Assembly: GCA_016200005.1 (NCBI GenBank)
Contig: JACQFP010000034.1
Coordinates: forward strand, 1 to 64,000
Origin: Verrucomicrobiota bacterium
Lineage (GTDB): Bacteria; Verrucomicrobiota; Verrucomicrobiia; Limisphaerales; PALSA-1396
Reading direction: 5' to 3'
DNA length: 64,000 nucleotides
Position numbers and translations under genes: made by a program. Under the pieces are notes generated by a model. The model had not been told where the DNA came from and made no database searches. It was given only the letters and a program-made list of their open reading frames with translations. Below are positions 1 to 39,430 of this stretch, piece after piece (within the stretch, counting starts at the first letter, position 1; each line of letters begins with the position of its first letter).

Positions 1-117
1 CGCAGCCAACAACCCAAAGCACAATACAAAACCACCACCGACTTCCAAGCTGCCATGGGAGAAAACAACCTCGCCAAAGCCATGCGATTCGTCACACGCA
101 AACGTCCATGCCTCTAA
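1..117 (+). CDS. C-terminal end of an unidentified protein (5' truncated by window)
   Basis: An open frame runs from the first base to TAA at 115-117 and encodes 38 residues ending in TRKRPCL. The residues are basic and polar with no motif I recognise. No internal start is needed, because the frame is open to the window edge, so this is most simply the tail of a gene that begins upstream. It is short enough to be chance, and nothing in the neighbourhood indicates a function. Confidence 0.4.
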   Translation, partial: RSQQPKAQYKTTTDFQAAMGENNLAKAMRFVTRKRPCL

Positions 118-254
118 AAACACGCTCATGCATACGCGCTGAACATTTGCCTTCGTCGCTCTTTAGTGTTGGCTTTGAGGCTGATTTTTGATTAAAGAGT
201 GGGCCGGAGTTTTGATGATTTGAAAAAAGCGATGGAAACGGGAACGAACGGTTT

Positions 255-2780
255 ATGAGTCTGCCGCCATCCCATGTCTTGTTGGTGGAGGATGACCTTA
301 AAATGCAGGAGGTGCTCGGCGCCCTGTTGCAGGAGGACAACATAGTGCTCGCCAACGCCGCTACGGCGGAACAGGCATTGGCTCAGGTGCGGGAAAGCAA
401 ATTCGACCTGGTGTTGTTGGATCTGGGTCTGCCCGGCACCAACGGCTTCGAGGTGTTACGCGAGCTTAAGAGCAATCCCTCGACCCAATCGATTCCGGTT
501 ATCGTCCTGACCGCCTGGAACAGCACGACCGACAAATTGCGCGGATTTGAGCTGGGCGCGGTGGATTATCTTACCAAACCGTTCGAGGCCGCGGAGCTGC
601 GTGCCCGCCTGTGCGCCGCCTTGCGCGCCAAACATCTGCAGGATGAGTTGACGCAGACCAACCGGGAATTGGAAGCCGCGCGAGTGGCCGCCGAAACCGC
701 CATGCGCGCCAAGGCGGAGTTTCTGGCCAACATGAGCCATGAAATCCGGACGCCCATGAACGGGGTGATCGCGATGGCCGGTTTCCTCCGCGAGACGCCG
801 CTGAACAACGAGCAGCTCGGCTACGTGGAGACCATCCATGCCAGCGGTCAATCCCTGCTCACGATCATCAACGACATTCTGGATTTTTCCAAGATCGAGT
901 CCGGCAGGATGGATCTGGAACATCAGCCGTTCGATCTTCGGGCCTGTATCGAAAGCGCGCTGGATCTGCTGGTGCCCAAGGCGGCGGAAAAGCAACTGGA
1001 CCTCGCCTATCAGGTGGACGACGCAATCCCCGCGATGGTTCTGGGTGATGTCACGCGGCTGCGCCAGGTGTTGGTCAACCTGATTGGGAACGGAATAAAA
1101 TTTACGGCGGCCGGCGAAGTCATCATCCAGGTCAAAGTCGAGGCGTCCACCCAACCGGCCACGCTGACGCCACCGCCGGAATCAGTGCCGGCGCCGGCCA
1201 AACCTTGGGAACTTCATTTTTTTGTCCGCGACACCGGCATTGGCATTCCGTCTGACCGGGTTGACCGGCTGTTCAAATCGTTCAGCCAGGCGGACGCCTC
1301 CACGACGCGCCAGTACGGCGGCACGGGACTGGGACTGGCCATCAGCAAACGGCTCGTGGAACTGATGGGCGGGCGGATCTGGGTCGAGAGCGTGCCCCAA
1401 AAAGGTTCCACCTTTCATTTCATTGTTCCCTTGCAAGCTTCGCCCGAGATCGCGCGGTTTTCCTTGCGCGGACCGCAACCGCAATTGGCAGATTTGCGGG
1501 TGTTGATCGTGGATGACAATCCGACGAACCGTCGCATCCTCACCCTGCAAACCGGCAAATGGGGGATGATCCCGTGCGGCGCGCAGAGCGGCAGGCAGGC
1601 TTTGGAATGGCTGCGCCAAGGCGAGCCTTTCGACCTCGCCATCCTCGATATGCAGATGCCGGAAATGGATGGATTGATGCTGGCCGGGGAAATCCGCGCG
1701 TTGCCCGGAGCGCGTTCCATGCAACTCATCTTGTTGACTTCGACCGGGGTCCGCGCCGACGATCCGGCTTTCGCCCGCCTCGCCTTCGCCGGGTGCCTGA
1801 CGAAACCGGTCAAACCAGCGCAACTGTATGAAACGCTGGTGCGGGTCATTTCCAACACCCAGCCGGCCCCCAAGAAAGCCGTCGCGGCGCCGGCCAGGCC
1901 GGACATCAAGCTGGCCGACCGATTGCCATTGCGCGTGCTGGTTTGCGACGACAACCTCATCAATCAAAAAGTTGCGGTGCGCCTCGTCCAACAACTGGGC
2001 TACAAAGCGGATGTGGCCAACAACGGACAGGAAGCCCTCGAGGCTTTGGAACGTCAACCGTATGATTTGATTCTCATGGACGTGCAGATGCCGGTCATGG
2101 ACGGCATGATGGCCACTCACCAGATCCGCCAGCGGCAGCAGGAAAAACCTCGATTTCCCAACTTTAAGTCCCCCATCATCATCGTCGCCATGACGGCCAA
2201 AGCCATGCCGGGAGATCGGGAAAAATGCCTCGAAGGCGGCATGGATGATTACCTCGCCAAACCGATCCGGTCGGAGGATATTTATTCCATCATTGAACGA
2301 TGGGGTTCCATCGCGGCCGCCGCCGTGCCGGCCCAGCCCTCGCCCACCGTGGCCGTCACTCAACCGCCGCCCGCCGCGGCCCCACCAGTGGACGCGTCTC
2401 CGGCGGTCCCCGACGCGGAGCCGCCCGTCAACATGGAACGGCTGCTGGATTTCGCGGGCGGGAGCGCGGATAATTTGCGCGAACTGATCACCCTCTACCT
2501 GCAACAAACCGGGGATCAAATCGAAAAACTCGAAACGGCCGCTCGCGCCGGCAACGCCCCGGAAGTCAAACGCCTGGCCCACAGTTGCGCCGGCGCCAAT
2601 GCCACCTGTGGCATGGTCACCATCGTCCCGCTGCTGCACAAACTCGAACGGATGGGCAATGAAGCCGACTTGACCGAGGCCTTGCCGGTTTGCGACGAAG
2701 CGTTCCGGCAATTCGACCGCATCCGGCGTTTTTTGTCCGAGTATCAGGACCGGCATCTCACCAACAACCTTTCCGCTTGA
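255..2780 (+). CDS. Hybrid sensor histidine kinase with three receiver domains and an HPt domain
   Basis: A phosphorelay kinase of 841 residues. Order: receiver 1 (about 7-122, acceptor D56), short coiled coil (about 125-150), HisKA with the H-box [10 protein letters not shown] (H162), HATPase_c with DTGIGI and GGTGLGLAI, receiver 2 (about 411-535, D465), receiver 3 (about 557-685, D609 in [10 protein letters not shown]), a Pro/Ala-rich linker and a C-terminal HPt domain (H776 in [13 protein letters not shown]). There is no membrane segment or periplasmic sensor, so it should be cytoplasmic, with input through the N-terminal receiver. The full His-Asp-His path is present within one chain. The next gene, 10 bp downstream, is another multi-receiver protein and a likely partner. 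The N-box reads NLIGNGIKF, with the key Asn residues kept. Confidence 0.93.
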
Positions 2781-2790
2781 TCAACTCACC

Positions 2791-3969
2791 ATGAACAAAC
2801 TGCTTTTAGTCGATGACGATAAAATGATCGCCAATATCTATCGGAACAAATTTTCCCTGGAAGGCTTCAAGGTGGAAATTGCCGGGGATGGACAAGAGGG
2901 GTTGGACCTGATGCAAACGTTCCAGCCGGACGTGGTCATCCTCGATCTTATGCTTCCCAAGATGTCTGGGGTTCAACTCTTGACGGCCATTCGCGCCATG
3001 CCGGGGTGTCAAAAATTGCCGGTCATTGTTTTTTCCAACACTTATCTGAGCGGCACCATCCAAGAGGCTTGGAAAGCCGGCGCCACCAAATGCCTCTCCA
3101 AAGGCAGTTGCAGCCCGGCCCAACTCATCAAGCTCGTCCAAAACACCTTGCGGCCCCCGGCACCGGCAGCCGAGGCCGAGCTTAAAACCGTCCCCGACCA
3201 AACGCCCGCGCCGGCGACACCCGGAGACGCCGATACCGCGTTTCAGACGAAATTGCGCGAGTCCTTTATTGAAAGCTTGCCGGCGACGTTGAACATCCTG
3301 CGCGCACAGCTTCGCGGATTTTCCAAAGCCGGGAACGAATCCGAGCGCCTGAAGCTACTGGAGGAGTTATGCCGCAAGGTTCACGCCTTGATCGGCAACG
3401 CGGGCATTGCCGGGATGCAGCAGGTCGCACATTTCTCCGACGCGGTCGAAGCCCTGCTCAAAGAACTGTCCGAGAAACCCAAAAGCATCAACGCCTCCAC
3501 CTTGCGCACCGTCGCGAGCGCCATCGATTTTCTCGGCGTGCTGTTTGAACCGGCTCATTTTTCCAAGAACCTGAATACCGACACGGCCAGTGTCCTGGTG
3601 GTGGATGACGAGGAACTCTCGCGGCGGGCGGTCGTTCACGCGTTGGAAAAAGCAAAACTCACGTCCGTGAGTGTGGAAGACCCGCTGGAAGCCTTGAGAT
3701 TGCTTGGCGAAAAATCCTACGATCTGGTCCTGCTGGATGTTGATATGCCGGGCATCAACGGCTTCGAACTTTGCACCAAGTTGCGCACCATGCCCGCGCA
3801 AAAGGCCACGCCGGTCGTCTTCGTCACCCGCCTCACCGACTTTGAAAGCCGGGCAAATTCCATGATCAGCGGCGGCACGGACCTGATCGCCAAACCGTTT
3901 TTGTTCATGGAATTGGCCGTCAAAGCTTTGGTTTATATCATGCGCAGCCGCCTGGGCGCAAACTCGTGA
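2791..3969 (+). CDS. REC-HPt-REC response regulator without output domain
   Basis: 392 residues. An N-terminal receiver (about 3-118; D8-D10, D52 in VVILDLMLPKMSG) is followed by a Pro-rich linker. The helical middle segment (about 150-255) carries RKVHALIGNAGIAG, an HPt-like signature with H198 as candidate phosphoacceptor, and a second receiver (about 268-385) has D316. There is no DNA-binding or enzymatic output domain, so it probably shuttles phosphate or binds a partner protein. The gene starts 10 bp after the hybrid kinase on the same strand, which points to one transcript. The HPt assignment rests on the H-x-L-x-G pattern; the Lys that usually follows the Leu is Ile here. Confidence 0.88.
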   Translation: MNKLLLVDDDKMIANIYRNKFSLEGFKVEIAGDGQEGLDLMQTFQPDVVILDLMLPKMSGVQLLTAIRAMPGCQKLPVIVFSNTYLSGTIQEAWKAGATKCLSKGSCSPAQLIKLVQNTLRPPAPAAEAELKTVPDQTPAPATPGDADTAFQTKLRESFIESLPATLNILRAQLRGFSKAGNESERLKLLEELCRKVHALIGNAGIAGMQQVAHFSDAVEALLKELSEKPKSINASTLRTVASAIDFLGVLFEPAHFSKNLNTDTASVLVVDDEELSRRAVVHALEKAKLTSVSVEDPLEALRLLGEKSYDLVLLDVDMPGINGFELCTKLRTMPAQKATPVVFVTRLTDFESRANSMISGGTDLIAKPFLFMELAVKALVYIMRSRLGANS

Positions 3970-4027
3970 ACCGTGTCATTGAAGCACCGTGCCATACTCG
4001 TTTCGCAAGCCGGCGACACCCGGGACT

Positions 4028-4056
4028 TTGACTTTCCCCGTTTCCCTGACTAGGGT
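4028..4056 (+). promoter_or_regulatory. Candidate promoter of the HIT gene, near-leaderless
   Basis: TTGACT (4028-4033), a 17-bp spacer and TAGGGT (4051-4056). The -35 box is good and the -10 box weak. The ATG begins only 7 bp after the -10 box, so a transcript from here would start at or next to the start codon, without a Shine-Dalgarno site. Confidence 0.4.
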
Positions 4057-4063
4057 CTGAATC

Positions 4064-4552
<489 letters not shown>

Positions 4553-6470: not shown

Positions 6471-6548
6471 CAAAGGCGGCGGAAATAAAACGCTCGCAAT
6501 TCTGTCCCGCCCGGTTCATGTTTGGCCATAACCAGTGCAAACGAAACC

Positions 6549-9116
6549 ATGAAACATGGCGCCCGCTCTCTGCCTTTGCCCGCCGTAGCCGCCGCCGTTG
6601 TAGCCGCCGTTGTAGCCGCCGACGTAAGGAGGCGGATTCCCGTTCCCTGTAGCCACCGAGGTAACGAGGTGGATTCTTCCTCCCTTCCCTCCGCCTCATT
6701 ACTTCGGCGGCTACATCGGTGGATTCCTCTTCTCCTCCTTTTCCTCAGCCTGACCGCCCCCGCCCAGCCCTTCACCAACTCCGCCACGCTCGCGGCGGCC
6801 CGCGACGGCACCAATCTCGTCGTCACCTACTCGCTGGCCAACACGCAGGGCTGGGTCACGCTGTTCCAGGCAGACAAGCCGGAGATGCTGCTCTCCAATG
6901 CCCAGCCGGTGGACCTCGCGCCCGCGCCCGCTTCCGGCTCGGGCCAGTTCACCGTGCCGCTCGACCCGACGGCGCCCACGCGCTTCTATCGCCTGCTCAT
7001 CGAGCAATATCCGACGCGCGGCAAGGCGCTGGTGTTCGTCAACGGCCCGCTCGACTTCGACGCCATGCGCCTGACCTACGGCGCCATCACCAACAACGAT
7101 CAAAGCACCAACTCCGTTCACACGAACAGCACGCCAATGATTTTCCGACAACCAGTTCAAGTCTGGCTCAACCACCTTGGCTACTACGACACCAACGGCG
7201 TTCTAGTCGGCGATAATGGTGGAATGCTGAATGGAAAATATTCGAGGCCGGATGTTTCGTCGATAGACGATCCTGGACATGGCTTTCTTCCCATTAGCCC
7301 GCTTCAGTCTGTGAGCAACGACTTTCGGGTCGACTACGCTGGCGATGCCAACGTTCCGGCCAGAGAAGCCGTTATTTGGAGCACGGAAGCTCAGATGTAT
7401 TACGACGTGGACAATTACCGCTCGACACAGTTGACGGACGCATTCATTCAAGAGCTTCAACTGCCCGCTCAAATCGAACAAAATTTAATTAATCTGCAGT
7501 ACCGGCCGGATTTGAATATGGGATCGCCTCCTACAATGGCAAAACCAATTCTAAGAGCTCTTGAGGATTCCGGCACCTCATCATATCTCCGTCTATACCC
7601 AATCGGTAACGCATATAGTGTTTCTTTAAGAACTCGGGCAGCAAGCTATGTTTCCTTCCCTCCACTCTCGCTCGGTTACGATTCGGAAGCCTTCGTCGGG
7701 GATTACGTTGGCTTGGTCTTCTTTTGGGTTTTTGGCACGAACAGCGGTTATGGCGGTGATGCGTTCTACGGACAGAACAGCGAGTGGATAAGCAACGTCG
7801 TTTCCCCCGTTAACAATGCTCTCTCCGCTTGGATCGGCTACCGCTATTTCGGCAATTCAGAGATTTACCGCTACATCGATTATAGCAAGCGCATCTGGGG
7901 TGGACGACCGTGCGGCGGCACCGGCATTCCGTGCGACCAAGGGCAGAACATTCGCAACGTGATGATGTTCGATGAAGCCAATACTTCGCATGACGGAGTC
8001 TTTCCTTATCTCTGGCCCGCAAATGTCGCTACTGACCCAGTGTCGGTTGCATTCTCCATTGATGACGGCCCGGCGGTGTCCGACCTGGCCGCGCTTTACA
8101 TCGCCGCCATTTTTTACGACCTCGCGCATGAAGCCGGGCTGGGCTTGCACAAGACCGATTTGCTGATCTGGAAAACCATTTCGCTCATCACCGACAACGT
8201 GAACTTTCCGATGCGGGCCTTGGGCGGCAAGGTGCAGGAAGCCGCGCGCGCCCTCTGGCCAGACCCGCGCCCCGGTCGCGCCGGCCTGAGCCTTTACGAG
8301 GAAGACGTCGTCGATGTCCTCACCTCCCGCGGCATCCCGATGAACGGCGTCGCCGATTTCCGCACCAACCTGCCGGTGGCGATTGGCGTTTTTCCCGGCA
8401 GTCTGGATGTCAGCAGTGCAAACCGTTTTGGGTCGGGACATCCTGAAACTCAGCCGGCGGTCAACAGTTACGGCGCGTTCAGTGGTTTTATGAATGGCTA
8501 CACGCAAACGAATGCAGCACCAACCAACTATGTCGCGTACCAATTTTACAAACACTCCAAGTACGGCCCATGTGACGAACTGCGTTTGACCGACGGAACA
8601 CTCGACGCAACGACGGGCGTGTATAACAACGACGGGAGCTATTATCTCGTCCTAACAAACCGCGACCTCGGCAACCTTACTGTGCTGGCTCCTGGTAATC
8701 ACATCAAATGGGCGCGAATGCGTTTCCGCTGCCCGAACGAAGCCACTGGGTTCTACGCCGAGGATGTGCGTCCGTTTGGTTTCCGGCTGATTGCGGCCAC
8801 GCCCAACGGTTTTTCCTTCACCGCCACGGCACTCTCGGAAACCGCCACCAACAAGACCTATCAACTCACCATCCTCGATCCCTCCGTGGCCACGATCGGC
8901 ACGGCCACGTACGCCTGGACGTTCACCGATTACTTGGGAAACACAAACAACGTGGCCGGCAGCGTCGTGTCTCATACCGCGCTCAAAGATCAACCGTTCA
9001 CGTTGAGCATCGCCCGCACCCGCGCCGCCCAAACCGACACCCTCACCCTCCGCGAACGCGGCAATGATTTGGATCGCAACGGCGGGAATGCGTTTGTGAG
9101 GAATCTTGTCCCGTAG
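6549..9116 (+). CDS. Large exported protein of unknown function
   Basis: I do not recognise a family. From ATG 6549 it is 855 residues. The hydrophobic core RWIPLLLLFLSLTAPAQ and a likely AQ cleavage site mark it as exported. A basic N-terminal piece (MKHGARSLPLP) is separated from that core by some 43 residues encoded entirely by family A repeats (6584-6714). The mature part contains aromatic-rich stretches (7100-8000, visibly less GC-rich than the rest), GGRPCGGTGIPCDQG with two close Cys, and a C-terminal beta-like domain. The stop TAG at 9114-9116 lies in a repeat-like GTAG. Part of the 3' end is duplicated at 9250-9411. The start is uncertain: an earlier in-frame ATG lies at 6522. Confidence 0.7.
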   Translation: MKHGARSLPLPAVAAAVVAAVVAADVRRRIPVPCSHRGNEVDSSSLPSASLLRRLHRWIPLLLLFLSLTAPAQPFTNSATLAAARDGTNLVVTYSLANTQGWVTLFQADKPEMLLSNAQPVDLAPAPASGSGQFTVPLDPTAPTRFYRLLIEQYPTRGKALVFVNGPLDFDAMRLTYGAITNNDQSTNSVHTNSTPMIFRQPVQVWLNHLGYYDTNGVLVGDNGGMLNGKYSRPDVSSIDDPGHGFLPISPLQSVSNDFRVDYAGDANVPAREAVIWSTEAQMYYDVDNYRSTQLTDAFIQELQLPAQIEQNLINLQYRPDLNMGSPPTMAKPILRALEDSGTSSYLRLYPIGNAYSVSLRTRAASYVSFPPLSLGYDSEAFVGDYVGLVFFWVFGTNSGYGGDAFYGQNSEWISNVVSPVNNALSAWIGYRYFGNSEIYRYIDYSKRIWGGRPCGGTGIPCDQGQNIRNVMMFDEANTSHDGVFPYLWPANVATDPVSVAFSIDDGPAVSDLAALYIAAIFYDLAHEAGLGLHKTDLLIWKTISLITDNVNFPMRALGGKVQEAARALWPDPRPGRAGLSLYEEDVVDVLTSRGIPMNGVADFRTNLPVAIGVFPGSLDVSSANRFGSGHPETQPAVNSYGAFSGFMNGYTQTNAAPTNYVAYQFYKHSKYGPCDELRLTDGTLDATTGVYNNDGSYYLVLTNRDLGNLTVLAPGNHIKWARMRFRCPNEATGFYAEDVRPFGFRLIAATPNGFSFTATALSETATNKTYQLTILDPSVATIGTATYAWTFTDYLGNTNNVAGSVVSHTALKDQPFTLSIARTRAAQTDTLTLRERGNDLDRNGGNAFVRNLVP
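6584..6714. repeat. Family A repeats inside the signal-peptide region of the exported protein
   Basis: Truncated units begin at 6584 and 6600, followed by full units at 6612-6636 (GTAGCCGCCGACGTAAGG..), 6649-6673 and an inverted unit 6690-6714. All are read in frame without a stop between the basic start and the hydrophobic core of the downstream protein. Confidence 0.85.
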
Positions 9117-9131
9117 CTTCCGCCTCCGATT

Positions 9132-9241
9132 GTAGCCGCCGACGTAAGGAGGCGGAGGGGAAAAGGAAATTCCACCTTCTCACGTCGGTGGCTACGGTGG
9201 CTGGTGGCAGTACGAAACCGCCTCGTTACCTCGTCGGCTAC
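9132..9241. repeat. Family A repeat cluster
   Basis: Forward unit 9132-9156 and inverted units 9171-9195 and 9217-9241. They separate the end of the exported-protein gene from the duplicated copy of that end. Confidence 0.85.
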
Positions 9242-9249
9242 GGACGTTC

Positions 9250-9411
9250 GCCGGCAGCGTCGTGTCTTACACCGCGCTCAAAGATCAGCCGTTCACGATC
9301 AGTATCGCCCGCACCCGCGCCGCCCAAACCGACACCCTCACCCTCCGCGAACGCGGCAATGATCTGGATCGCAACGGCGGCAATGCGTTTGTGAGGAATC
9401 TCGTGCCGTAG
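9250..9411 (+). pseudogene. Partial duplicate of the 3' end of the exported-protein gene
   Basis: 162 bp that match 8955-9116 at a constant offset of 295 bp, from GCCGGCAGCGTCGTGTC to the TAG stop, with roughly ten substitutions. The copy lacks any start or upstream coding sequence and is joined to a family A unit on its left. Divergence shows the duplication is not very recent. Confidence 0.88.
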
Positions 9412-9547
9412 GTTCCGCCTCATCACTTCGGCGGCTACGGCGTAGCCGACGCCAGGCCCGTAGCCGCCGACGTAAGGAGGCGGACGGCCCGGAATCCACC
9501 TCCTTACGTCGGTGGCTACGTTTCGGTGGCTACTTCGCGGCGGCTAC
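9412..9547. repeat. Family A repeat cluster upstream of the first RAYT gene
   Basis: At least four units in both orientations: inverted near 9415-9438, forward near 9459-9483, inverted near 9496-9520, and partial inverted tips (GGTGGCTAC, GGCGGCTAC) to 9547. They end about 45 bp before the transposase start. Confidence 0.82.
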
Positions 9548-9590: not shown

Positions 9591-10298
9591 ATGATCCCGC
9601 CGCGCAAAGGGAAACTTCCCCGGCTCGAACGTCATCATTACCAGGGCCACGCGGTCATCTTCTGGACGAACACGCTCGAAGAACGCGCCCGCGGCTGGCT
9701 CACCGCGTCCTTTCACGCCACGTTCCGGGAAGTGATGCTCCACACCGCCGCGCGCGAATACCTTTTCTGCCCCGCCTACTGCCTCATGCCGGATCATCTG
9801 CACCTGATCTGGATGGGTCTGCGCCGCGGGAGTGACCAGCTTAACGCGATGAAATTTCTGCGCACGCATCTGGAGCCGGCGCTGGGTGGCGGTCGCGCAT
9901 GGCAGCATCAACCGCACGATCACGTCTTGCGCGAAGAGGAGAGGCAGCGGAATGCGTTCGCCAGTTTCTGTTTCTACACGCTGGCCAATCCGGTGCGCGC
10001 CGGCCTCGTAGCCGCCGACCAGAATCCACCTCGTTACCTCGGTGGCTACCGAACCGGCTACCCAACCGGCGTAGCCGCCGAGGTAACGAGGCGGACGGGT
10101 CAGGATCCGGAGGAATCCGCCTCCTCACGTCGGCGGCTACAGGCGGCGGAATGCGACTGGCCTTACAGCGGGGCGATCATCCCCGGCTATCCTGACGTTC
10201 ATCCGCTGGATGAGGATTACTGGCCATTGTTCTGGAAACTTTACGTCGCCGAGCGCGATGCTGAAGCGCCACCGCCATCATTGCCGCCCCTCAAGTAG
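9591..10298 (+). CDS. REP-associated tyrosine transposase (RAYT), repeat-interrupted
   Basis: 235 residues of the Y1/TnpA_REP family. It carries CLMPDHLHLIWMG, the HUH metal-binding motif, and FYTLANPVRAGLV, the block that in this family holds the catalytic tyrosine. Such single-domain HUH nucleases bind and nick palindromic REP repeats. Compared with the second RAYT in this window, it has about 45 extra residues between AGLV and DWPYSGA, encoded by family A repeats at 10008-10140, in frame. The stop codon is part of the next repeat (AAG-TAG-CC). Family A repeats flank the gene on both sides. Whether the interrupted protein still folds is unknown; the catalytic core precedes the insertion. 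Confidence 0.9.
   Translation: MIPPRKGKLPRLERHHYQGHAVIFWTNTLEERARGWLTASFHATFREVMLHTAAREYLFCPAYCLMPDHLHLIWMGLRRGSDQLNAMKFLRTHLEPALGGGRAWQHQPHDHVLREEERQRNAFASFCFYTLANPVRAGLVAADQNPPRYLGGYRTGYPTGVAAEVTRRTGQDPEESASSRRRLQAAECDWPYSGAIIPGYPDVHPLDEDYWPLFWKLYVAERDAEAPPPSLPPLK
10008..10140. repeat. Family A repeats inside the RAYT coding region
   Basis: A forward tip at 10008 joined to an inverted unit ending near 10050, a full forward unit 10071-10095 and a full inverted unit 10116-10140. The reading frame stays open throughout (GTA GCC GCC reading). Confidence 0.88.
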
Positions 10299-10406
10299 CC
10301 GCCGACGTGAGGAGGCGGAGGGAAAGGGGAAAAAGGAAATCCACCTCGTTACCTCGGTGGCTACGGACGGACAGAACGGAATCCACCTCCTCACGTCGGT
10401 GGCTAC
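10295..10406. repeat. Family A repeats downstream of the first RAYT
   Basis: A forward unit 10295-10319, whose TAG terminates the transposase, and two inverted units 10340-10364 and 10382-10406, the last ending a few bases before the stop codon of the convergent gene. Confidence 0.88.
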
Positions 10407-37553: not shown

Positions 37554-37693
37554 GTAGCCGTGGACGTCCGTCCGCGCCAATCTCTCCGCGAACGGTTCAC
37601 CCGAAGTTAGCCCGTCCATTCCTCGCGACAATTTGCGCCGACTCACGTCAGCGGCTACTTCGGCGTAGCCGCGAACGTCAGTTCGCGCTAATC
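37554..37693. repeat. Family A repeats, second variant (A2), upstream of second RAYT
   Basis: A pair made of GTAGCCGTGGACGTCCGTCC at 37554 and an inverted partner ending GCGCCGACTCACGTCAGC.. at about 37634-37658, then a lone half-unit GTAGCCGCGAACGTCAGTTC at 37665-37693. The central variation (TGGACGTCAGTCC versus CCGACGTAAGG) sets them apart from the 6-10 kb copies. Confidence 0.85.
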
Positions 37694-37715
37694 TCGTCCC
37701 ACGCACGCCAGTCCG

Positions 37716-38324
37716 TTGCCACCGAATTCCCACGCCCCCAAACCTCGTTCCTCGTTCTCGCATTATCTGCCGCGCTTGAAACGCGAGTTCTATCAAGCCG
37801 ATGCCGTTGTGTTCTGGACCATGCCTGTTTCCCAGCGTGCGCAGGGCTGGCTGACCGACCGTTTTCATGACATTTTCCGCGAGATGCTGCTGCACGCGGC
37901 GGCACGCGAAGGTCTGCTTTGCCCGGCCTACTGCCTCATGCCCGACCACGTCCATCTTGTCTGGATGGGCCTGCGTCGTGGGACCGACCAGCGCAATGGG
38001 ATGAAATCTCTCCGCGCGCAACTCGGTCCGTTCCTCAAACCGGCGAAGTTCCAGCATCAGCCGCACGACCATGTGCTCACCCCGGAGGAGCGGCAACGTC
38101 ACGCCTTTGGAGTCGCCTGCGCGGATTACGTCTTGCTCAATCCACTGAAAGCCGGGCTGGTGAAATCGTCAACGGACTGGCCGTATCTCGGCGCGCTGAT
38201 TCCGGGCTATCCGCGACTGAACCCGTTCGATGCCGGGTATTGGACATGGTTTTGGAAACACCACTTCGCCGTGCGCGAACCGGGCATCCAGCAGCGCGTT
38301 CTGCCGCCGCGTGAGATGGAATGA
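37716..38324 (+). CDS. REP-associated tyrosine transposase (RAYT), second copy
   Basis: 202 residues with CLMPDHVHLVWMGLRRG (HUH site) and YVLLNPLKAGLV (tyrosine block), then DWPYLGALIPGYPRLNPFD. It is clearly related to the RAYT at 9.6 kb but lacks that gene's repeat insertion, so it shows the ancestral layout. The only available start upstream of the conserved region is TTG at 37716, inside or next to repeat sequence; conserved similarity begins around HYLPRLKREFYQADAVVFWT. Flanked on both sides by A2-type repeats, its presumed substrate. Confidence 0.9.
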   Translation: MPPNSHAPKPRSSFSHYLPRLKREFYQADAVVFWTMPVSQRAQGWLTDRFHDIFREMLLHAAAREGLLCPAYCLMPDHVHLVWMGLRRGTDQRNGMKSLRAQLGPFLKPAKFQHQPHDHVLTPEERQRHAFGVACADYVLLNPLKAGLVKSSTDWPYLGALIPGYPRLNPFDAGYWTWFWKHHFAVREPGIQQRVLPPREME

Positions 38325-38329
38325 CGACC

Positions 38330-38513
38330 GTAGCCGTGGACGTCAGTCCGCGCTGATCTCTTCGCGAACAGACCTTGCGAATCGGGTAAACTTTCGTGAT
38401 CGGGAAGTTTGCGCCGACTCACGTCGAGCGGCTACCCAATCGTCGTAGCCGTGGACGTCAGTCCGCGCTGATGTCCTGAAAGAAGAACGGCGCCGACTGA
38501 CGTCGGCGGCTAC
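38330..38513. repeat. Two A2-type repeat pairs downstream of second RAYT
   Basis: Pair 1: GTAGCCGTGGACGTCAGTCC at 38330 with an inverted partner ending at 38435. Pair 2: the same head at 38445 with an inverted partner ending at 38513 (GCGCCGACTGACGTCGGC..). The tip of the last unit supplies the stop codon of the convergent gene. Confidence 0.88.
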
Positions 38514-39430
38514 GGGGAGTTTTTCAAATATCTCTCAATCCCGTCCCGAAAAAGAATCGGTTTAAGACCAAATAACTCATTCGCCGGTTGCGGATTTCCT
38601 ATGTTGTCCTCCTGCAACATGACAAGCTGATCACGATTGAACGGCGGCGGTTTCCCCAGCAGTCGCGCGAAAATAAACTCAAGCATCGCCGCCTGATAAC
38701 GCGCCACTTTCATTGGCATGTGTAATTTCAGACGCATCCGTCCCGTCACCGAAAGAATCTGATCCAGGATTTCTTCGAGCGTGAGCACTTCGCTACCGCA
38801 CAAATCGAACGTCTGGCCATCGGACTTTGGTTCGGTGAGCGCCTTGACAAAGCAAGTCGCCACGTCCGCAACAGTAACCGGTCGAAATTTGCTCTGTCCG
38901 CTGCCCATCACCGGCACCACCGGTAAAAATCGGCTCATCCTTGCGAACAGGTTTACGAATTGGTCGTCCGGACCGTAAATGATCGAAGGTCGGAAGATGG
39001 TGAAGTTGATTCTGCTGCCACGAACGATTTCCTCCGCCGACCACTTCGATTGGTGGTAACGCGATAGGGCATTGGCACGCGTGCCGAGAGCGCTCATGTG
39101 CAGCAAGCGTTTCACTCCAGCTTGTCGGGCCGCGGCCACAACGTTCTGCGTGCCGCAAGTGTGGACGTTTTCAAAAGTGTTTTCGCCCACCTCGCTGATG
39201 ATGCCGACAAGATGAATTACCGCGTCGCAACCGGTCATTGCGCCAGCCATTGACGGCGCATGAAGGACGTCGCCCGGATGAACTTCAATTAGCTGGTCTG
39301 CCTCAGCTTCGTGCACGCGCAGCGACCGACGGTTGCGGGCCAGGACGCGCACCGAATACCCCGCCGCGTGCAGTTGCCGCAGGATTTCCCGTCCTACAAA
39401 GCCCGTTGCGCCTGTGACAAAGACCTTCAT
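38510..39430 (-). CDS. NDUFA9-like atypical SDR NAD(P)-binding protein
   Basis: 306 residues from MKVFVTGATGFVGREILRQL. The N-terminal GATGFVG is the dinucleotide-binding motif. Further blocks are GCDAVIHLVGIISEVGENTF, HMSALGTRANALSRYHQSKW (the SDR Ser and YxxxK), and RPSIIYGPDDQFVNLFARM. This is the complex I NDUFA9-like group of nucleoside-diphosphate-sugar epimerase relatives, present widely in bacteria; the substrate is unknown. The stop codon TAG is formed by a family A repeat at its 3' end. The upstream gap to the peptidase gene carries TTGGAGTA microrepeats. Confidence 0.92.
   Translation of the reverse strand: MKVFVTGATGFVGREILRQLHAAGYSVRVLARNRRSLRVHEAEADQLIEVHPGDVLHAPSMAGAMTGCDAVIHLVGIISEVGENTFENVHTCGTQNVVAAARQAGVKRLLHMSALGTRANALSRYHQSKWSAEEIVRGSRINFTIFRPSIIYGPDDQFVNLFARMSRFLPVVPVMGSGQSKFRPVTVADVATCFVKALTEPKSDGQTFDLCGSEVLTLEEILDQILSVTGRMRLKLHMPMKVARYQAAMLEFIFARLLGKPPPFNRDQLVMLQEDNIGNPQPANELFGLKPILFRDGIERYLKNSP

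Follow-up and report, generated by a model that had tools for sequence, protein, structure and literature searches.

The GTAG head has been described as a feature of REP sequences (Nunvar et al., 2010, PMC2817692), and their layout as inverted pairs as that of REPINs (Bertels and Rainey, 2011, PMC3116915). In REPINs and REPtrons, inverted doublets of about 70 nt are dispersed throughout the genome and the RAYT gene is flanked by inverted REPs (Nunvar et al., 2010, PMC2817692; Bertels and Rainey, 2011, PMC3116915), an arrangement which is shared by the locus described here. The presence of GTAG REPs, as singles or dimers, in frame in protein genes was described in 2013 (Di Nocera et al., 2013, PMC3733652), the genome with the highest number of GTAG cases being that of the verrucomicrobium Opitutus terrae, where both uvrA genes are hit. 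The inserts reported in that study code for 20-82 residues in various species. Rickettsia palindromic elements (RPE) are similar in that they are palindromes located in frame in genes, the products of which are probably functional (PMC3733652). With regard to the transposases, work on Escherichia coli TnpA_REP has shown that deleting 34 or 21 C-terminal residues impairs both binding and cleavage and that losing the last 13 residues raises activity (PMC8266576).

The locus analyzed here lies in a window of 64,000 nt (the whole stretch of DNA under study, G000:C34), part of a verrucomicrobial genome of 6.54 Mb in 87 contigs that is represented by one assembly. In this window, a RAYT gene, referred to as RAYT1, carries repeats of its own flanking family, family A, within its reading frame (Table 1).

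A RAYT gene with repeats in its reading frame

Across 49 aligned sequences, H69, H71 and Y129 are invariant, which places RAYT1 among proteins with an HUH motif and a single catalytic tyrosine of the Y1/IS200-like type. All 23 alignment-invariant residues are retained, with neither a stop nor a frameshift in the gene. The NCBIfam model REP_Tyr_transpos matches the 49 sequences without exception, RAYT1 itself with an E-value of 6e-14 and 52 bits, below the curated cut-off of 80, and the Pfam model Y1_Tnp gives no match to RAYT1; the assignment was made by NCBIfam together with structure. By sequence, RAYT1 matches a single PDB entry, 4er8, which shows E. coli TnpA_REP in complex with a REP hairpin; this entry also ranks first by fold, ahead of IS200/IS605 transposases. 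This protein is thus the closest solved structure in both sequence and fold, with HUH motif, tyrosine helix and DWPFS segment following in the same order, although at 165 aa it has no insert and its identity to RAYT1 is only about 21%. Related RAYTs are recorded from Limisphaerales, Pedosphaera and other Verrucomicrobiota.

Alignment to 48 homologues places the insert between LV and CDWPYSGA, where it separates the catalytic-tyrosine helix from the C-terminal segment. The reading frame holds three complete 25-nt units of the family A repeat GTAGCCGCCGASGTRASGAGGCGGA, and with 235 aa it is well above the threshold of at least 120 aa applied to intragenic cases, remaining open on both sides of the repeats where the homologues are free of insert. 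Both units of the complete REPIN are identical to the family consensus, which indicates that the insertion is recent. A unit whose first base immediately precedes the stop codon, so that the REP supplies the TAG, occurs at nine scanned RAYT loci, RAYT1 included (the others being L059, L062, L070, L073, L074, L075, L085, and L097).

Table 1. Features of the RAYT1 locus (window coordinates) and further genes of the same genome with REPINs in frame
Feature	Position	Strand	Remarks
RAYT1 gene	9591-10298	+	235 aa; HUH motif D68-H69-L70-H71, catalytic Tyr129
Insert relative to all spanning homologues	10011-10142	+	132 nt, 44 codons; from alignment, ends uncertain by a few nt
Internally deleted REPIN	10008-10049		11-nt GTAG head, 6 nt, complete minus REP
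Head of unit	10008-10018		11 nt, GTAGCCGCCGA
Complete family A REP unit within coding sequence	10025-10049	-	25 nt
Linker between the two REPINs	10050-10070		21 nt
Complete REPIN	10071-10140		70 nt; plus REP 10071-10095, 20-nt spacer, minus REP 10116-10140
Downstream flanking REPIN	10295-10364		Its GTAG gives the TAG stop of RAYT1 (10296-10298), within REP 10295-10319
Further downstream REP unit	10382-10406	-	
Upstream flanking REPs	9414-9519		9414-9438 minus, 9460-9484 plus, 9495-9519 minus
More distant upstream REPs	9132-9242		9132-9156 plus, 9171-9195 minus, 9218-9242 minus
RAYT2, insert-free paralogue	37716-38324	+	
glpD (glycerol-3-phosphate dehydrogenase)			In-frame family A REPIN
uvrA	L126 (G000:C6:65500-71500), ORF 95-3484	-	Three in-frame REPINs: one family A, two family GTAGCAGCCGACGTMAGTCGGCT
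GMC oxidoreductase			In-frame family A REPIN
prfC (peptide chain release factor 3)	L128 (G000:C6:236600-242600), ORF 2286-4217	-	29-residue in-frame REPIN
M20 dipeptidase			In-frame family A REPIN
ThuA/heme-binding fusion			In-frame family A REPIN
Two NPCBM genes, one alpha-galactosidase-like			In-frame family A REPIN in each
msbA-like transporter			In-frame family A REPIN between membrane and ATPase domains

The comparison with homologues drew on 71 distinct RAYT loci that span both of the relevant loops (the second being described below). Among these, only RAYT1 has extra residues between (A/G)LV and DWPxxGA, a spacing of about 4-6 residues in the aligned homologues, and the closest orthologue (L059, in G038), which is 86% identical, lacks the insert. 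An insertion of unrelated sequence native to this site, which would have spoken against the reading given in an earlier note on this DNA, was found in none of the 70 other spanning loci and was rejected as an explanation. Likewise, no orthologue carrying the insert was found in 320 genomes of the order, and a shared, conserved insertion was rejected on this ground; the same-genus genome G001 has no RAYT1 orthologue. Since the nearest orthologue differs at the insertion point, neither the ancestral codons nor an IS200-like target signature at the GTAG can be recovered. The paralogue RAYT2 is bordered (window 37554-38514) by repeats of another REP family, in which GTAGCCGTGGACGTCAGTCCGCGC pairs with GCGCCGACTSACGTCRGCGGCTAC, and was therefore rejected as the mobiliser of family A.

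In its main lines, the description given in the earlier note is borne out by these results: the gene is a RAYT, as seen from its HUH and tyrosine residues, 4er8 fold and flanking REPs; the insertion can be read directly from the comparison with the paralogue at 37.7 kb and with the other spanning homologues; and the inserted repeats belong to the flanking family and keep the frame. Its two full units within the frame have to be raised to three complete 25-nt units, and its figure of about 45 added in-frame residues lowered to 44.

Family A repeats around RAYT1 and within other genes

A 25-nt family A pattern gave 136 matches in the 6.54 Mb genome with up to 2 mismatches and none when reversed, which excludes a chance origin of the units. 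Around the listed copies the units mostly form inverted pairs, plus followed by minus, with 54 pairs of 60-91 nt, mostly 75-76 nt. The family therefore displays the GTAG head, palindromic REP, inverted pairing, short fixed spacing and high copy number of REPINs. Twelve units occur in RAYT1 or within 1 kb of it (six upstream, three inside, three downstream), against a genome average of about one per 48 kb, and the gene is thus flanked by inverted REPs from a dispersed family, as is characteristic of RAYTs. At most RAYT1-clade loci that were retrieved with their flanks, about two units were found on each side of the gene. A 127-nt direct repeat (window 9000-9126 and 9295-9421, 94% identical) has also been detected, in which the gene upstream (6522-9116) has its 3' end duplicated beyond the REP cluster, which suggests a repeat-associated partial duplication.

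Family A is present in 31-295 copies in each of the 11 genomes with a RAYT1-clade gene and reaches at least 30 copies in 20 of 282 others, an association with p = 3e-12 in a calculation that ignores relatedness. Several REP-rich genomes have no detected RAYT1-clade gene, and these were counted against the explanation favoured below. One genome that is 96% complete (G037) has 298 family A copies, with no RAYT1-clade gene found, and its congener G080 has both.

RAYT1 is one of several genes in this genome with family A REPINs in frame. A scan requiring coding signal in a single frame on both sides of the repeat identified at least nine further genes (Table 1), a lower bound given that it used a simple codon score and covered the clusters around the 100 listed copies out of 136. 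Most of the nine could be assigned by family searches, and most have conserved domains on either side of the repeat. In prfC the REPIN falls between the GTPase domain and domain 2, the model match ending at 367 and the REPIN starting at 369. For UvrA, release factor 3 and the dipeptidase, the score remains above the curated cut-off for one or more equivalog models. On either strand, 80-89% of the 54 REPINs leave two of their three frames open, the third being closed by the TAG of GTAG, and the REPIN length is divisible by three in about 40% of cases. Since two frames are usually open and such lengths are common, an open in-frame insertion is not a rare event, with selection removing those that break the frame. 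In Verrucomicrobiota, as the nine genes show, REPINs repeatedly give rise to new stretches of protein, which are mostly 24-29 residues long.

Further RAYTs have been hit by repeats. In the Pedosphaera sp. Baikal-deep-G230 genome (G186), a RAYT (L086/L042, G186:C43:1060-1716) carries two in-frame REPINs that belong to its own local repeat family, GTAGGCGACGASGTRASGAGTCG, at the loop between LEAAL and KFQPQ. The genome contains 92 copies of this family, with the densest listed cluster at the RAYT gene, and AlphaFold predicts a disordered insert and an intact core for the protein. The event is independent of that in RAYT1 and took place at another loop. A RAYT from G192 (L040, G192:C97:266-910) has an in-frame insert of about 25-30 residues in the same loop as in G186 (LEAAL/KFQPQ), with two units of the palindromic repeat GCCGYGTTCNNACGAACRCNGCC, which has 23 copies in that genome, 8 of them on the contig of the RAYT; this is probably a further case of in-frame insertion by a gene's own family. 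Consequently, in-frame inserts occur in two, probably three, of the 71 RAYT loci, involving different repeat families and two sites. In addition, a RAYT1-clade gene in G233 (L039, G233:C202:316-1088) is disrupted by other palindromic repeats that total about 300 nt.

Origin and consequences of the insert

A local accumulation of REPINs near the RAYT gene, combined with the survival of those insertions that are in frame and located in a loop, is the likely explanation for RAYT1, and it covers RAYT1, the further affected RAYTs and the nine genes unrelated to them alike. According to this model, family A REPINs (about 75 nt, each made of two inverted 25-nt GTAG REPs) spread throughout the genome and pile up at their own RAYT, and two of them entered the coding sequence at a surface loop following the catalytic-tyrosine helix, after which one would have lost its middle, unless it had arrived truncated. 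RAYT1 itself may have catalyzed the insertion. Structure modelling with the insert, proposed in the earlier note, predicted an intact catalytic core, with AlphaFold (49 sequences) giving pLDDT values of 92-98 for the core on either side of the insert and of 44-62 for the insert itself, which loops out as a disordered segment after the tyrosine helix (122-136) and before a strand and helix at 193-223. The insertion would have survived because the frame was kept, two of three REPIN frames are usually open and the disordered loop lies outside the catalytic core. The insert is probably a near-neutral member of the genome-wide set of in-frame REPINs, and the 235-aa protein presumably still works.

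A different fate for the gene, in which the insertion inactivated RAYT1 and the frame is still open owing to recency and to the scarcity of stops in two frames, is unlikely. The exact consensus of the intact REPIN leaves little time for decay, an open frame is often expected by chance and the RAYT of G233 has indeed been broken by other repeats; nonetheless, RAYT1 has no stop or frameshift, keeps every invariant residue, has a core that is predicted to be intact and shows only 2 changes on its branch at positions conserved in five outgroups, compared to 7 on the branch of its closest orthologue. Between these two genes dN is 0.14 and dS about 1.4, with dN about one tenth of dS, which indicates at the sequence level that RAYT1 has been under purifying selection. 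As the insert is recent and most of the dN/dS signal predates it, this signal says little about the time since insertion. A misjoining of repeats into RAYT1 during assembly is extremely improbable: the genome does come from a single assembly in 87 contigs, but an insert of about 132 nt is within reach of a normal read pair, it sits between unique flanks, the reading frame is preserved exactly, and a comparable insertion is present in another, independent assembly (L086).

The earlier note had also raised the possibility of a self-limiting feedback, in which REPINs inside the gene would lower RAYT output or activity and be selected for restraining the repeats, through an mRNA hairpin, through binding of the RAYT to its own gene or transcript, or by keeping the C-terminal segment apart from the catalytic core. 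The insert directly precedes the segment that matches the C-terminal part of TnpA_REP in the alignment to 4er8, and since TnpA_REP needs this part, an effect on activity is plausible by analogy. The insert is also predicted to form a very strong hairpin in the coding region of the mRNA (-112 kcal/mol, z = -8.6), so that damping of translation is possible, and two to three independent RAYTs have in-frame REPs. Comparable hairpins are, however, expected in the other REPIN-carrying genes, no fewer than nine genes unconnected with transposition have the same REPINs in frame, the insert sites differ among the RAYT cases and none of the RAYT1-clade relatives shares the insert, so that nothing has been conserved over time. 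With nothing that singles out regulation, the feedback proposal finds no support here; it was set aside as the leading reading once nine other genes had proved to carry REPINs in frame, and is quite unlikely. Very doubtful is the broader proposition that cognate REPINs enter RAYT genes of the order time and again at loops that tolerate them, with the inserts damping activity or translation; if this were true, a repeat family too active at home would limit its own mobiliser.

If RAYTs place REPINs, RAYT genes would be the likeliest coding targets, since they are sited in the densest repeat clusters. RAYT1 and the RAYTs of G186, G192 (a probable case) and G233 (a broken gene) can be regarded as natural insertion mutants of transposases, marking loops that tolerate insertions.

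Relation to described systems

The earlier note knew of no precedent for repeats inside the gene of their own transposase. For a RAYT as the target this stands, none being named in the main text of the published reports found, whereas in-frame REPs in genes as such had already been published (PMC3733652). The locus differs from REPINs and REPtrons as described, in which the repeats are extragenic and lie outside the RAYT reading frame (PMC3116915; PMC2817692), and from RPE, which are of CGTC type, have no dedicated transposase and occur in another phylum (PMC3733652). The intragenic GTAG REPs show the greatest resemblance, occurring in Verrucomicrobia, in frame, with uvrA among their targets and with REP ends that give TAG stops; the main text of that study names no RAYT, while here the target is the cognate transposase (PMC3733652). 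RAYT1 can thus be considered one case of a known process, the in-frame insertion of REPs, made noteworthy by the transposase itself being the target and by the recurrence of such events.
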